DNA from: Vasconcelosia minhoensis LEGE 07310
GTDB lineage: Bacteria > Cyanobacteriota > Cyanobacteriia > Phormidesmidales > Phormidesmidaceae
Assembly: GCF_015207255.1 (NCBI RefSeq)
Contig: NZ_JADEXG010000020.1
Span: forward strand, 1 to 64,000
Direction: 5' to 3'
DNA: 64,000 nt
A program made the position numbers and the translations under genes. Position 1 is the first letter of the stretch; each line of letters opens with the position of its first letter. The notes beneath the pieces were generated by a model that was not told the DNA's origin, did not search any database, and saw only the letters and a program-made list of their open reading frames with translations. This document shows, piece by piece, positions 33,499 through 59,702 of the stretch.

Positions 33499-34317
33499 AT
33501 GATCAGGCAGCTCCTGGCGGTAGGTGATTATCGGTTCAGCTATTGGGCTGTAGGGAATCCTCAGCATCCGCCGATTCTTTTTCTGCATGGCTTTATGGGG
33601 AGCGGTCAGGATTTTGCTCAGGTGATGACAGCGATCGCGGATCGGTTTTACTGTGTTGCGGTTGATTTGCCTGGCCATGGTTACACCCAAGTTTTAGGAA
33701 AACCCGCTAGCTATGGTATGGAACCCACTGCTGCAGGACTTATCCAGCTGATCACAGCGCTCGATCTTCGGCCCTGCCGACTGGTTGGCTACTCGATGGG
33801 TGGGCGTCTGGGGCTCTATCTCCTGCTGCAGTTTCCCGAGTATTTTTGCGCTGCCGTTTTGGAGTCGGCTTCGCCGGGGTTGCAGACGGCGGTGGAGAGA
33901 GAGGAGCGGGTTAGGCGCGATCGCGCCCTTGCCCAACAGCTCGAAACCCAAGACTTCCGAAATTTTCTCACTGACTGGTACAACAATTCCCTATTCACTT
34001 CGCTTAAAAGTTCTCCTAGTTTTGCCTCTATGTTCAAGCGCCGACTTCAGAACAATCCGAGAGAACTGGCCCAGTCAATCCGACATTTCAGCACCGGCTG
34101 CCAACCTTCTCTTTGGCACCGCCTATCTCAAAATCAGGTGCCATTGCTGCTGCTAGTCGGCAGCTTAGACTCAAAGTTCGTTAACCTCAATAGTCAAATG
34201 GCTGAGCTCTCCGGGCTTGCTCAGCTTAGAATCGTCGCTGACGACAGTCACAATATCCACTTAGCCGCACCCGAAAGATTCGTTTCTGAAGTAAAGCGGT
34301 TTTTTACTGGTACTTGA
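33499..34317 (+). CDS. menH: MenH-type alpha/beta hydrolase
   Basis: 272 residues. MenH eliminates pyruvate from SEPHCHC to give SHCHC. Fold and catalytic residues are complete: oxyanion motif FLHGFMGSG, Ser in VGYSMGGRLGL, Asp in VGSLDSKFV and His in DDSHNIHLAAPE. The placement after menF and menD supports the assignment over a general hydrolase. Confidence 0.9.
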   Translation: MIRQLLAVGDYRFSYWAVGNPQHPPILFLHGFMGSGQDFAQVMTAIADRFYCVAVDLPGHGYTQVLGKPASYGMEPTAAGLIQLITALDLRPCRLVGYSMGGRLGLYLLLQFPEYFCAAVLESASPGLQTAVEREERVRRDRALAQQLETQDFRNFLTDWYNNSLFTSLKSSPSFASMFKRRLQNNPRELAQSIRHFSTGCQPSLWHRLSQNQVPLLLLVGSLDSKFVNLNSQMAELSGLAQLRIVADDSHNIHLAAPERFVSEVKRFFTGT

Positions 34318-34654
34318 GTAGCTCAGCAGATCGGCATAATTAAGCTACGGATGTCATTTCGAGCAAAGTTGAGGTATCTCTCGATCCGTAAAATTTCTGA
34401 TGTCAGGCTATAGCTCTAGGGGCATGGCTCCGCTTCCGCTAATGCCACTAAGGTTTTTCAACCCGGTCATTGGCTGGTGAGCCTGCGCTAACCCCTAATT
34501 GTCCGATCCCACCTCAGCCCAATCAAATCCGTTTACGGGGCTTGGCTTAGCCAAAAAAATACAGAATTATTTTAGAAGTTCATACAAACCAGGTGTTTAT
34601 GCCGAAGCAGTAATCGGTTGGGTCCCTGAAAATAGGGTTTAAAGAGGATGAACT
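34318..34654. other. intergenic region before the GGDEF-EAL gene
   Basis: 337 bp with no gene. At 34352-34384 it has TGTCATTTCGAGC...GAGGTATCTCTCG, a form of the widespread GTCATTTCGA repeat. An AT-rich part with a possible promoter (34545-34600) follows. AGAGGA stands 8 nt before the ATG of the next gene. Confidence 0.5.
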
Positions 34655-37027
34655 ATGAAAAGCGCTGCTTTGCCCCAGGTCGGGACCAGCTCAATCGATA
34701 GCCAGAGCCCAATAGAGCACAAGCTAATCTCTGAGTTTGACTCGGCGAGCAATCCGCTTCAGTCCATTAGCACCCCAATTAAGCTTCTGCTGATTGCGCA
34801 TAACATACAAGATGCCAGTCTGATCCGGAAGCTGCTAGCCCTGGCCGAGAATCGACAGTTTGAGCTGGTCCATATACGGAGCCTGCCAGAGGCCCTAAAG
34901 TTCCTGAGCCGAGAAGCCATCGATGTCATTTTACTCAATCTACCCCCTCCAGATGGATATGGTATAGACATCGTTAGTCAGGTCCATGGTGCAGCGCCTC
35001 AGGTGCCCCTAATTACGTTGATAGGCTGTAATGATGCCATGCTGTCGATTGAGTCGCTCAGGCTTGGTGCCCAAGACTGTATTGCCAAGGACCAATTAGA
35101 ACACCACTCACTGCTCCGGACGGTTGACTACGCCATAGAACGCCATCAGATGCAGGCGCGCTCAAAGCAGCAGGTCGAGCGAGAACGCATGATAAATGGC
35201 ATTGCACAGCGGATTCGTCAGTATTTGAGCCTGGAGAAGATTTTGAATACGACTGTCGCGGAGGTGCGGCAGTTGCTTCAGGCCGACCGGGTATTTATCT
35301 ATCGCTTAAACCCAGACTGGAGCGGCACAATCATCGAGGAATCGGTCACTAGCCCCTGGAAGTCTATTCTAGGCGTGAGCAACCATGACCATAGCTTTGG
35401 CGAAAAATACGTTCCCCTGTATAAACTAGGTCGGGTTCAGGCCACCGAGGACATTTATACAGGCGGGTTGGACCAATGCCACATTGATTTTCTGGCCGAA
35501 TATCAAATTCGCGCTAACTTAGTGACTCCAATTGTTCAGGGAGAAAAATTGTGGGGGCTACTGGTCGCCAATCAGTGTAGTGGTCCGCGGCAATGGCAGC
35601 CGTTTGAAATTTCTTTACTCCAGCAGCTAGACACCCAGGTGGCAATTGCCATTCAGCAATCTGAGCTTTATGAACAATCCCAAAGTGAATTGGCCGAGCG
35701 TAAGCGAGTCGAGCAGCAACTTCGGCACAATGCGTTTCACGACGCTTTGACGGATCTGCCAAATCGAGCTCTGTATATGGATCGGCTGGGCCAGGCCTTA
35801 AAACGATACAGGCGGTTTAATACCTGTCAGTTTGCTGTGCTGTTTCTGGATATCGATCGCTTTAAGCTGGTCAATGATGCTCTTGGCCACCACATCGGCG
35901 ACCAGCTGCTGATTGCGCTCGCCCAAAGACTGAAAAGCTGTGTGCGGCCCGAAGATACGGTAGCCCGATTCGGAGGAGATGAGTTTGCCATTCTGTTGGA
36001 AGACATTAAAGATGCAAGTGTTGCAATACAAATTTCTGAACGAATTCTTCAGGCTTTAACTAAACCGTTTCTCCTGAAGTCTTATGAAATCGTCTCTACC
36101 ACCAGCATTGGTATTGTTATTAGCACAACCGGGTATGACGACCCTGAAAAGCTCCTGCGGGATGCAGATATTGCCATGTATCGCGCCAAGAATCAGGGTA
36201 AGGCTGGCTACGCCATTTTTGATGCCGCCATGCATGCTCAATCTGTGACTCAGCTCCAGTTAGAAACCGACCTGCGGCAAGCCGTTGAACGGCAAGAATT
36301 TACGGTGCTCTACCAGCCTATTGTGTCGCTCAGCAGTGGCAGAATCAGCGGTTTTGAGGCTTTGATACGCTGGCTGCATCCCACCCGAGGAATGGTTTCC
36401 CCGACAGAATTTATTCCAGTAGCAGAAGAAACTGGCTTGATCATCCCGATCGGTGCCTGGATCCTGCGAGAGGCTTGTGCTCAGATGCAGGCTTGGCAGC
36501 AACAGTTTCAGATAGCCCAGACCCTGACTATGAGTGTCAATCTTTCGTCAAGACAATTCATGCAGCTGGATTTAGTTGAGCAAGTCAATCAAATTTTGCG
36601 AGAGAGCCATCTAGAGCCCCGGCATATCAAACTAGAGATTACGGAAAGCGTCATTATGGAAAGGCCTGACATGGCAGCTCTAACGTTGAAAAAATTGCAC
36701 GAAAGTGGCATTCAAATTTCGATTGACGACTTTGGAACCGGATATTCGTCTCTCAGCTATCTCTATCGTTTTCCGATCGATACCCTCAAACTTGATCGCT
36801 CCTTTATCAAAGGCATTGACGTTGACGGCGAAAAGCTAGCCCTAGTCAAGGGGATTATCCAGCTAGCCAGGAACATGGACATGGATGTGGTGGCCGAAGG
36901 GATAGAAACAGCCCAACAGTTAGCCCAATTGAAAAAACTTCGTAGCGAATACGGACAGGGATATTTTTTCTCAAAACCTCTGAATAGTGAGACAGCAACC
37001 GCGATACTTGCCGAAGAATATCGCTGA
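34655..37027 (+). CDS. cyanobacteriochrome-like GAF / GGDEF / EAL protein with degenerate receiver domain
   Basis: 790 residues. Domain order: receiver-like (about 42-160), GAF (about 185-335), GGDEF (360-520), EAL (535-785). The receiver has Asn95 where the phospho-acceptor Asp is expected (VILLNLPPPDG), so it is not phosphorylated. The GAF has Cys275-His276 in GLDQCHIDFL, the bilin-attachment motif of cyanobacteriochromes, and DHSF (245-248) where DXCF types have a second Cys. GGDEF (440-444) and the inhibitory RxxD site RPED (431-434) are intact, as is EAL (568-570). It is thus predicted to make or degrade c-di-GMP under light control. Likely a stand-alone gene. Confidence 0.87.
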   Translation: MKSAALPQVGTSSIDSQSPIEHKLISEFDSASNPLQSISTPIKLLLIAHNIQDASLIRKLLALAENRQFELVHIRSLPEALKFLSREAIDVILLNLPPPDGYGIDIVSQVHGAAPQVPLITLIGCNDAMLSIESLRLGAQDCIAKDQLEHHSLLRTVDYAIERHQMQARSKQQVERERMINGIAQRIRQYLSLEKILNTTVAEVRQLLQADRVFIYRLNPDWSGTIIEESVTSPWKSILGVSNHDHSFGEKYVPLYKLGRVQATEDIYTGGLDQCHIDFLAEYQIRANLVTPIVQGEKLWGLLVANQCSGPRQWQPFEISLLQQLDTQVAIAIQQSELYEQSQSELAERKRVEQQLRHNAFHDALTDLPNRALYMDRLGQALKRYRRFNTCQFAVLFLDIDRFKLVNDALGHHIGDQLLIALAQRLKSCVRPEDTVARFGGDEFAILLEDIKDASVAIQISERILQALTKPFLLKSYEIVSTTSIGIVISTTGYDDPEKLLRDADIAMYRAKNQGKAGYAIFDAAMHAQSVTQLQLETDLRQAVERQEFTVLYQPIVSLSSGRISGFEALIRWLHPTRGMVSPTEFIPVAEETGLIIPIGAWILREACAQMQAWQQQFQIAQTLTMSVNLSSRQFMQLDLVEQVNQILRESHLEPRHIKLEITESVIMERPDMAALTLKKLHESGIQISIDDFGTGYSSLSYLYRFPIDTLKLDRSFIKGIDVDGEKLALVKGIIQLARNMDMDVVAEGIETAQQLAQLKKLRSEYGQGYFFSKPLNSETATAILAEEYR

Positions 37028-37055
37028 TGATTGATAATTTGCAGGCATCAATTTA

Positions 37056-37077
37056 GGGAATCTAGTTATAGATTCTC
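37056..37077 (+). terminator. weak hairpin after the GGDEF-EAL gene
   Basis: GAATCTA and TAGATTC with a GTTA loop, extended by two more pairs at the base. It lies 30 bp beyond the stop codon and has no T tract. Low confidence as a terminator. Confidence 0.3.
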
Positions 37078-37216
37078 CGTAGAAAATCACTAAAGACGCC
37101 TCCTTTGAGTAGGGCGTTGGCGCGCGAGGGATAGACGAGCCAAGCAGCGGTACAATCGCAACAGAACCTTGCACAGACAGGCCGAAAGGCAGCCAAACCT
37201 GCGTTCCTCAGTCGGG

Positions 37217-37885
37217 TTAACGGACATCGCTTACACCGACCTGGGCACACATCGACTCCACCGGACAGATCGAACAGCGAGGCCGTGTTCCCTGACAAAT
37301 CTGTTTGCCAAAGGGCATCAGCAGCTCGTTGGTTTCAATCCAGTGGCGCTGGGGGAGCTTTTGTTCTAGGGCCTGGGTTGTCTTTTCTGGCGTTTTGGTC
37401 TCAACATAGCCCCAGCGGTTGACCACCCGATGCACATGCACATCGACGCTGATGTAGGGCTGACCGCAGCCAATCCCCAAGGCCAGATGGGCGCACTTGG
37501 GACCGACGCCCTTAAAGCCGAGCATCACCTCCGCATCGCAGGGCAGTTCGCCTTCGTACTGCTCAACTAGGGTAGTCGCGATCGCGTGGATCTGCGCCGC
37601 CTTACGATCGGCAAAGGTGCTCCTGCGGATCAGAGATTCAATTTCTGCTACCTCAAGCTGGCTCATGGTCGCAGGAGTATTCGCCCTGGCAAACAGCTGA
37701 CGAGACACCGGCAAACTCACCTCATCATAGGTGCGAATCGAAATCATGCAGGAAATCAGCTGCTCAAAGAGCGAATCGTATCCCTCCGCCGCCAGCTGAA
37801 ACATCGCCGCCTTGGGATAGTCGCGCATGGTTTCACCGATCTGAGCGAGAGCTGTCTCAATCTTAAAATTAGGCAATGTTGGCAT
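37217..37885 (-). CDS. nth: endonuclease III-family DNA glycosylase/AP lyase
   Basis: 222 residues. Helix-hairpin-helix MLGFKGVGPKCAHLAL holds the catalytic Lys, and the catalytic Asp is in SVDVHVHRV. The C-terminal four-Cys iron-sulfur site has the expected C-x6-C-x2-C-x5-C spacing (CQGTRPRCSICPVESMC). It removes oxidised pyrimidines. The substrate-region sequence CMISIRTYDEVS is somewhat unlike classical SAQTTD, so this may be a divergent branch. Confidence 0.9.
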   Translation of the reverse strand: MPTLPNFKIETALAQIGETMRDYPKAAMFQLAAEGYDSLFEQLISCMISIRTYDEVSLPVSRQLFARANTPATMSQLEVAEIESLIRRSTFADRKAAQIHAIATTLVEQYEGELPCDAEVMLGFKGVGPKCAHLALGIGCGQPYISVDVHVHRVVNRWGYVETKTPEKTTQALEQKLPQRHWIETNELLMPFGKQICQGTRPRCSICPVESMCAQVGVSDVR

Positions 37886-57978: not shown

Positions 57979-59702
57979 GATAGCGACTTTGCCGAAATGG
58001 CCTGCGGTAGCTCAACCCAAAAGGTGGTGGCATCGTGACCGCTGCTGATGCCAATCTCGCCCTCTAGATGCATTAATAGGCGCTTGACCAGCGCTAGGCC
58101 CAGGCCCGTACCTCCCTGCTTCCAAGGATCGGCGCTGGGAATGCGATAGAACTTATCAAAGATCCGGTCGCGCTCTTCGGGAGAAATTTCAACGCCGGTA
58201 TTGGTTAAGCTCAGGCAAAGCCGGTTGGCTTCGGTGGCCCGAGCGGTCAACCGGATAGCCCCGCCGGGGGGCGTATATTTACAGGCGTTATTTAGCAGCT
58301 CAGCGAGAATTCGCTCCAGGCTAGACAGGTCTGAAACTAGCGGGGGTAGGTCGGCCGGAATGGTTAAATCTAGGGTTTGCTGACGGCTTTGCGCTCGCTC
58401 TTGGAAGCTCTGCATCAGCGACGGCAGCCATCCCGACAGTTGGATCGGCTGAGGCAGAATGGGGTGATTGCCGACGTCGAGTCGCTGGAGGTCAAGCAGG
58501 TCATTGATGAGGCCAATCTCGCGCTCGCATTCCTCTTGCAGAATACGGTAGTAGCGGGCCACGCGACGCTGCTCTAACATCGGCTTTTGCAGTTCGGCGT
58601 TGAGGTCAAATTCCTGATTGAGGGTAACGCCGAGCAGCTGCAGCGCCACCCGCATACTGGTGACGGGGGTACGCAGCTCGTGAGAAACCGTACTCAGGAA
58701 GTCGTCTTTGAGCGTATTCACCCGTTCCAGTTCCTGCACCTGGAGCTGGGCCTCCTGATAGAGGCGAGCCTGACGGATGGCAATCGCGCATTGGTTGGTC
58801 ACCTGCTGCACCAGGCGAATATCCAGCTCCTTGAAGCCGTATTCCGGGTCGTTAATCAGCCAAAGATCGCCCAGCACGCCGCGGTCATCCAGGATGGGAG
58901 AGGCAAACATCGCGACATGGCCCCGCACCGGGTTGGGGATAATTGAACAAAACTGAAGGTACTGACCCTCTAGCAGCTGTGTGTAAACCTCCGGAAAATC
59001 TTCCATCTGGGCAACGCGACCCTGGGAGGAGTGGAGGCCAATTGTATATTCCTGATAGATCGTTGAGGTGCCCTGTTCCAGGTCATAAAGCGCCGTATTT
59101 GCCCCCTTGACGCCGAGGGCTTCGGTCAGCTCCCTCATCGCCGTCTGCAAAATCTGGGCCTCATCCAGGCTGTCGCGGACGCGATCCGTCACCCGCTTTA
59201 GCGTCGCTTCAAAGGCCAGGGCGGTTTGCAGCCGGGTTTGCCCCTCGGTGATTTCCTGCCTGAGGGAGGCGTGCGCCCGCTGCATCTGCTGATTCAGCTG
59301 GGTCAGGGTAGCCAGCGCCAGCTGAGCGGTAACGTCCACCAGGGTATTGACTAGAACCGGCTGCTGGTCGAGCTGAAGCAGGGCACGATGGACAATCAGC
59401 CGCCGCGATGACCCCGATGAAAGCGTCAGTTCGAGTTCAGCGGGCTCGCCTGTGCCGCGGTCAAAGCAGGCAGCGTCATCCTGTCTCAGCTGCTGCGCAG
59501 CGGCCTCGGATAAAAAGGCCGTCTCCCCCAGTTCAATCAGCGCAGCGGGGGTCTGGCCGAGGAGAGCACCGCAGGCCTCGTTGGCATAGAGCCAATGGTG
59601 CTGGGCCGTCTTGACATAGACCGCCGCGGCGATCGCGCCAACCAGGCTGTCGAGAGTGACAGCAGCGGCGGACTGAGCCGGGGGGATGAAATCGGATTTC
59701 AT
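57975..59702 (-). CDS. PAS/GAF sensor histidine kinase
   Basis: 575 residues from ATG 59702; a TTG six bases earlier is less likely. Domains: PAS-like (about 15-135), coiled coil, GAF (about 170-315), HisKA with phospho-acceptor His in STVSHELRTPVTSM, and HATPase_c with LLNNACKYTPPGG (N box) and GGTGLGLALVKRL (G box). No membrane helix, so it is cytoplasmic. No response regulator is adjacent. Confidence 0.92.
   Translation of the reverse strand: MKSDFIPPAQSAAAVTLDSLVGAIAAAVYVKTAQHHWLYANEACGALLGQTPAALIELGETAFLSEAAAQQLRQDDAACFDRGTGEPAELELTLSSGSSRRLIVHRALLQLDQQPVLVNTLVDVTAQLALATLTQLNQQMQRAHASLRQEITEGQTRLQTALAFEATLKRVTDRVRDSLDEAQILQTAMRELTEALGVKGANTALYDLEQGTSTIYQEYTIGLHSSQGRVAQMEDFPEVYTQLLEGQYLQFCSIIPNPVRGHVAMFASPILDDRGVLGDLWLINDPEYGFKELDIRLVQQVTNQCAIAIRQARLYQEAQLQVQELERVNTLKDDFLSTVSHELRTPVTSMRVALQLLGVTLNQEFDLNAELQKPMLEQRRVARYYRILQEECEREIGLINDLLDLQRLDVGNHPILPQPIQLSGWLPSLMQSFQERAQSRQQTLDLTIPADLPPLVSDLSSLERILAELLNNACKYTPPGGAIRLTARATEANRLCLSLTNTGVEISPEERDRIFDKFYRIPSADPWKQGGTGLGLALVKRLLMHLEGEIGISSGHDATTFWVELPQAISAKSLS

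Follow-up and report, generated by a model that had tools for sequence, protein, structure and literature searches.

Light control of cyclic di-GMP in cyanobacteria is known from SesB (Tlr1999), a teal-activated phosphodiesterase (PMC5871770; PMC8846402) which binds phycoviolobilin (PMC8846402), represses aggregation and aids dispersal (PMC9090330). SesB carries GSDEF and no RxxD site (PMC5871770), and has no cyclase activity. In SesC (Tlr0911) and in Synechocystis Cph2, bilin-binding GAF domains are likewise joined to GGDEF/EAL outputs, and light sets the level of c-di-GMP. The domain order of Cph2 differs from that of the protein analyzed here. A different output is found in PPHK of Leptolyngbya JSC-1, a photosensitive histidine kinase that also responds to phosphorylation; its Pg form has its absorption at 562 nm (PMC11480761). 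PPHK possesses a receiver-GAF module with Cys-His and no second cysteine in the GAF domain; three crystals are available (6OAP, 6OAQ and 6OB8), and 6OAQ is listed with BeF3- bound. According to its original paper, PPHK is said to work as a logical OR gate. Cyanobacteriochrome GAF domains are further divided by motifs (PMC11284453). The second cysteine of DXCF proteins serves both isomerization to phycoviolobilin and a C10 adduct, red/green proteins are marked by WXDXXL, and members of the NpR3784 lineage, having lost the second cysteine, carry Val where the Trp would stand.

In this study, a stretch of 64,000 nucleotides from Vasconcelosia minhoensis LEGE 07310, hereafter the window, was analyzed. 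An ORF at 34655..37027 on the + strand, where all the features located below also lie unless stated otherwise, runs exactly from an ATG start to a TGA stop, with GAGG about 8 nt 5' of the start. The encoded protein of 790 aa contains Response_reg, GAF, GGDEF and EAL domains in this order, each above the curated Pfam cut-off, and it is likely to be a soluble cyanobacterial photoreceptor enzyme. As such, it would probably sense light and make or break c-di-GMP, with a layout already known from SesB. The NCBIfam search of the protein gave no equivalog above cut-off among the families listed. Upstream of the gene are menF-, menD- and menH-like genes, separated by a gap of 337 bases, and downstream is an nth-like gene. 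These menaquinone/phylloquinone-type and housekeeping neighbors seem unrelated, and no operon partner for the photoreceptor gene was found among them. When 34200-37300 was scanned for promoters and terminators, sites were rarer than in shuffled sequence. Another GAF protein is encoded in the same window at 58776-59159 on the - strand (L118, 581-aa frame); it shows distant similarity and is devoid of bilin motifs.

Nine proteins of another family (f26, including Thermosynechococcus) share the receiver-GAF-GGDEF-EAL organization and are 42-48% identical to the window protein over most of the length. One of them, L087, is encoded at 2.084 Mb on the + strand of its genome and possesses GSDEF without RxxD. 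The TePixJ GAF in the same genome agrees with TePixJ in the PDB wherever the two align, and the remaining photoreceptor loci of this genome follow an order consistent with T. vestitus BP-1; on these grounds L087 was taken as Tlr1999, that is, SesB. SesB (L087/L131) resembles the window protein in having a degenerate receiver, a cyanobacteriochrome GAF, a GGDEF domain and a complete EAL domain in the same order. The stretch from W314 to LPNR (35594..35767), covering the GAF end, the signaling helix and the GGDEF start, has exactly 58 residues in the alignment of the window protein with all nine SesB-type proteins. However, the GAF of SesB has DSCF and CY, binds phycoviolobilin and responds to blue/teal, whereas the window GAF has DHSF and CH, and the GGDEF and RxxD motifs degenerate or absent in SesB are intact in the window. 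SesC is less similar, with a longer N-terminal part, DPCF in its GAF, and a GGDEF-EAL part 42% identical to that of the window. Neither 63 genomes of the window's family nor one named-genome scan revealed a closer relative sharing this layout, and the 63 family genomes yielded no close orthologue. We also observed another light-type c-di-GMP enzyme of 855 aa (G180:C181:6517-8964, L221), which has a GAF with DSCF and CH and a GGDEF-EAL part without receiver, and is encoded in a relative of the Thermosynechococcus family.

The common layout raises the alternative that the window protein is a true SesB orthologue, in which case the fusion of receiver, GAF, GGDEF and EAL would be ancient and the GGDEF site would have been lost later in SesB. 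The same domain order, the equal linker between GAF and GGDEF and the level of identity over most of the length agree with a common origin, and AU tests do not reject a single clade of the window and SesB for either GGDEF-EAL (p 0.229) or GAF (p 0.336). One quick GGDEF-EAL tree even scored higher when the two were joined. However, the window falls outside the SesB clade in both careful trees, where the supports for SesB are 100/99 for GGDEF-EAL and 100/98 for GAF. The two halves of the window protein also point away from SesB: its GGDEF-EAL part is 59-62% identical to enzymes lacking a cyanobacteriochrome GAF but about 48% identical to SesB, and for its receiver-GAF part the nearest protein, at 52%, is one of the histidine-kinase type. 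Orthology thus remains a serious contender that falls somewhat short of an even chance, and the trees favor, without proving, separate fusions in the window and SesB lineages, to which we lean slightly. The fuller scenario, that a two-input histidine-kinase module of receiver and bilin-GAF was joined to GGDEF-EAL at least two times, in the window and SesB lineages, and lost the receiver phosphorylation site each time, is put forward as a tentative proposal with less than an even chance.

The GAF domain (about residues 185-345, 35207..35689) was detected by Pfam at residues 193-333 with 80.1 bits, above the curated cut-off, and matches solved cyanobacteriochromes with E from 1e-54 to 1e-31 in the PDB sequence search, which puts the resemblance far beyond chance. 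The best match is PPHK (6OAP, E 1.3e-54), followed by NpR3784-derived miRFP670nano, NpR6012g4, AnPixJ, RcaE and TePixJ; several of these names are presumed from our reading of the PDB codes. The sequence-only reading had proposed a cyanobacteriochrome-type GAF with the Cys-His pair at 275-276 and DHSF in the place of DXCF. Both motifs are present: C275-H276 (35477..35482) aligns with the canonical bilin-attachment cysteine of the solved members, and D245-H-S-F248 (35387..35398) was located by translation and alignment. In a comparison of 95 Cys-bearing GAFs, the window deviates at just three of the positions that 75% or more of them share (M179, Y190 and T291), and the kept photosensory residues include C275, H276, D245, F248 and Y256. 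The same reading had suggested that clustering with non-photosensory GAFs in a tree would speak against it. In a FastTree phylogeny of 119 GAFs, such clustering was not seen; the window lies among cyanobacteriochromes, and supports of 96 and 95 set it apart from the non-photosensory GAFs encoded in the same genome and in T. vestitus. Tree and motifs together rule out a non-photosensory GAF, and by its sequence the window GAF is a cyanobacteriochrome.

By its motifs, this GAF fits none of the DXCF, red/green and NpR3784 schemes exactly. The second cysteine of the DXCF subfamily is replaced by S247. The WXDXXL of the red/green (XRG) group is absent, the corresponding residues being N243-H-D245-H-S-F, and the domain branches outside the AnPixJg2/NpR6012g4 clade. 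The canonical cysteine and the absence of a second one are shared with the NpR3784 lineage, the second-best solved match (as miRFP670nano), but N243 stands in place of the Val two residues before Asp, and the tree gives no clear placement of the window inside this lineage. The nearest GAFs, L039, L044 and L062, are 62-64% identical and include types both with and without the second cysteine, which indicates that this cysteine is often lost in the GAF neighborhood. One further DHSF, together with CH, occurs in L036 (G048:C137, residues 190-360 approximately), a protein of the same family with several GAFs in tandem, where it sits beside a DHCF neighbor and probably represents a separate Cys-to-Ser change. 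In the window's own genome, an additional cyanobacteriochrome-like GAF with DPCF (L125, G000:C47:2254-2487) lacks the middle part including the bilin Cys region, so that DPCFGEE joins VGIALQQA directly, and resembles a photoreceptor that has decayed or suffered an internal deletion.

The genome (5.26 Mb, 161 contigs) encodes a heme oxygenase and PcyA (349.7 bits against a cut-off of 206), and is thus by gene content a producer of phycocyanobilin. This bilin may be attached at C275, with D245 holding its pyrrole nitrogens. DHSF corresponds to DXCF with the cysteine missing and predicts no blue-absorbing adduct; since Ser takes the place of the second Cys, no C10 adduct can form, and the dark state is expected to differ from the lit one by Z/E isomerism of the bilin. 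The absorption of the two states would lie in the green and the red; should the pocket isomerize the bilin to phycoviolobilin, the pair would be green and teal. Because N243 is unlike both the Val of PPHK and NpR3784 and the Trp of the red/green group, the color is not readable from close precedent. The green/teal alternative, in which the bilin becomes phycoviolobilin without a second Cys and the sensor stays in the blue-green range like SesB, is a real one, because AM1_6305g1 is reported to isomerize its bilin even after its second Cys was changed to Ser (PMC11284453). It is further favored by the DXCF members L062, L067_646 and L099 among the nearest GAFs, and by phycoviolobilin being SesB's own bilin (PMC8846402). 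Nevertheless, the nearest solved relatives lacking the second Cys, PPHK and the NpR3784 lineage, are green/red with phycocyanobilin (PMC11480761, PMC11284453), and the window has His after the Cys where Thermosynechococcus SesB GAFs have Tyr; we consider the green/teal sensor rather unlikely.

The receiver (about residues 42-160, 34778..35134) was recognized by Pfam at residues 52-147 with 37.3 bits, compared with a cut-off of 30.2. Some 50 receivers of this module, which precede homologous GAFs in other cyanobacteria, were aligned with it, and the alignment puts the phospho-acceptor position at N95 (codon 34937..34939). An Asn at this position and a dropped phosphorylation input had been claimed from the sequence. 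The alignment bears out the former and reveals that the loss was understated, as four of the five key residues are gone: the acidic pair is replaced by A48/H49, Asp by N95 and Thr by I123, and only K145 remains. This is not the residue set of a phosphorylatable receiver. The latter claim is supported beyond its original extent by a comparison of outputs. The Asp is kept in 45 of 49 true receivers with outputs other than GGDEF-EAL (the exceptions are L027, L104, L237 and L239) but in none of the ten with GGDEF-EAL output, namely the window and the nine SesB-type proteins; the count leaves out six rows that are not receivers (L025, L028, L033, L034, L037 and L063) and comes from a sample chosen by similarity to the window protein, not a census. 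Receiver decay thus accompanies GGDEF-EAL output in this sample. The nine SesB-type proteins form one clade, so the ten losses amount to one or two events. L237 (G068:C58) and L239 (G189:C4) are histidine kinases that share the receiver-GAF arrangement but have the receiver Asp replaced by Ala or Asn, which means that decay is not limited to GGDEF-EAL outputs. Another receiver-GAF protein with histidine-kinase output is encoded in the window's own genome (L104, G000:C24:54452-55420); its GAF has DTCF and CH, and its receiver Asp is changed to Ser (LLLSSLLPD).

An AlphaFold2 model of residues 37-346 reached a mean pLDDT of 91.4, and the receiver in it is predicted to fold well despite the loss of its site. 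The best structural match of the model is to the three PPHK crystals (300 residues, Z 28.4, rmsd 4.3, 40% identity), with an aligned length about twice that of GAF-only matches; the match to miRFP670nano has 1.3 A and 51% identity. A sequence search with just the window receiver likewise retrieves 6OAP (E 2.5e-5). PPHK differs in its histidine-kinase output, and its BeF3--bound crystal stands against the lost receiver site in the window. The fold match combined with the lost site therefore suggests that the window protein carries the two-input module of PPHK with the phosphate input disabled. Its receiver would be a folded remnant of a PPHK-like phosphorylation-plus-light module, now serving only as a structural or dimerization part. 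A receiver that still takes input by binding a partner protein or ligand instead of phosphate is compatible with the retention of a full-length, well-folded domain, but no partner gene adjoins among the quinone-type and unrelated housekeeping neighbors, and we regard this as doubtful. That the GAF itself lost photosensing, and is a scaffold or binds another small molecule while the output is constitutive or nucleotide-regulated, would suit an N-terminal half decaying after the loss of both second Cys and receiver site, but it is very improbable given the retained C275, H276, D245, F248, Y256 and other conserved positions and a terminal branch of 0.28, shorter than the median of 0.35 and unlike that of a decaying domain.

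The GGDEF domain (35732..36202) matches at residues 360-516 with 167.7 bits and the EAL domain (36269..36979) at 539-775 with 267 bits. All the catalytic motifs of both domains that had been read from the sequence were found, and so was RxxD. RPED at 431-434 lies five residues before GGDEF at 440-444, which is the spacing of the I-site, so that the sequence has the features of a diguanylate cyclase. It equally has the E of EAL, N, E, DD, K, E and Q of a phosphodiesterase, within EALIRW 568, NLS 629, ITES 662, DDFGTGYSS 691, KLDRSF 712, AEGIET 747 and GQGYF 767. As both catalytic domains look intact, the direction of the enzyme is not predictable. Light may shift the long helix that links GAF to GGDEF, and thereby change the balance of the GGDEF-EAL tandem, whose output could be that of a phosphodiesterase gated by GGDEF or of a two-way enzyme. 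The genome contains 18 GGDEF matches. Its sole PilZ match is at the end of a cellulose-synthase-like protein and has RxxxR and DxSxxG. Effectors such as this protein might read the product; in Thermosynechococcus, Tll0007 is a target of this kind (PMC5871770).

The window protein would be a second, differently tuned example of light-controlled c-di-GMP enzymes with the SesB layout. What is new relative to SesB is the intact cyclase domain and the natural Ser at the second-Cys position of DXCF. A single-Cys GGDEF-EAL protein, possibly gated by green/red light, could serve as an optogenetic part. We interpret the protein as a light-regulated c-di-GMP enzyme that may be derived from a phosphorylation-plus-light sensor module, and the comparison with PPHK frames the question of whether placing a two-input module before a c-di-GMP enzyme makes the phosphate input dispensable. 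If the double fusion with receiver loss is true, evolution would have reduced two inputs to a single one more than once.
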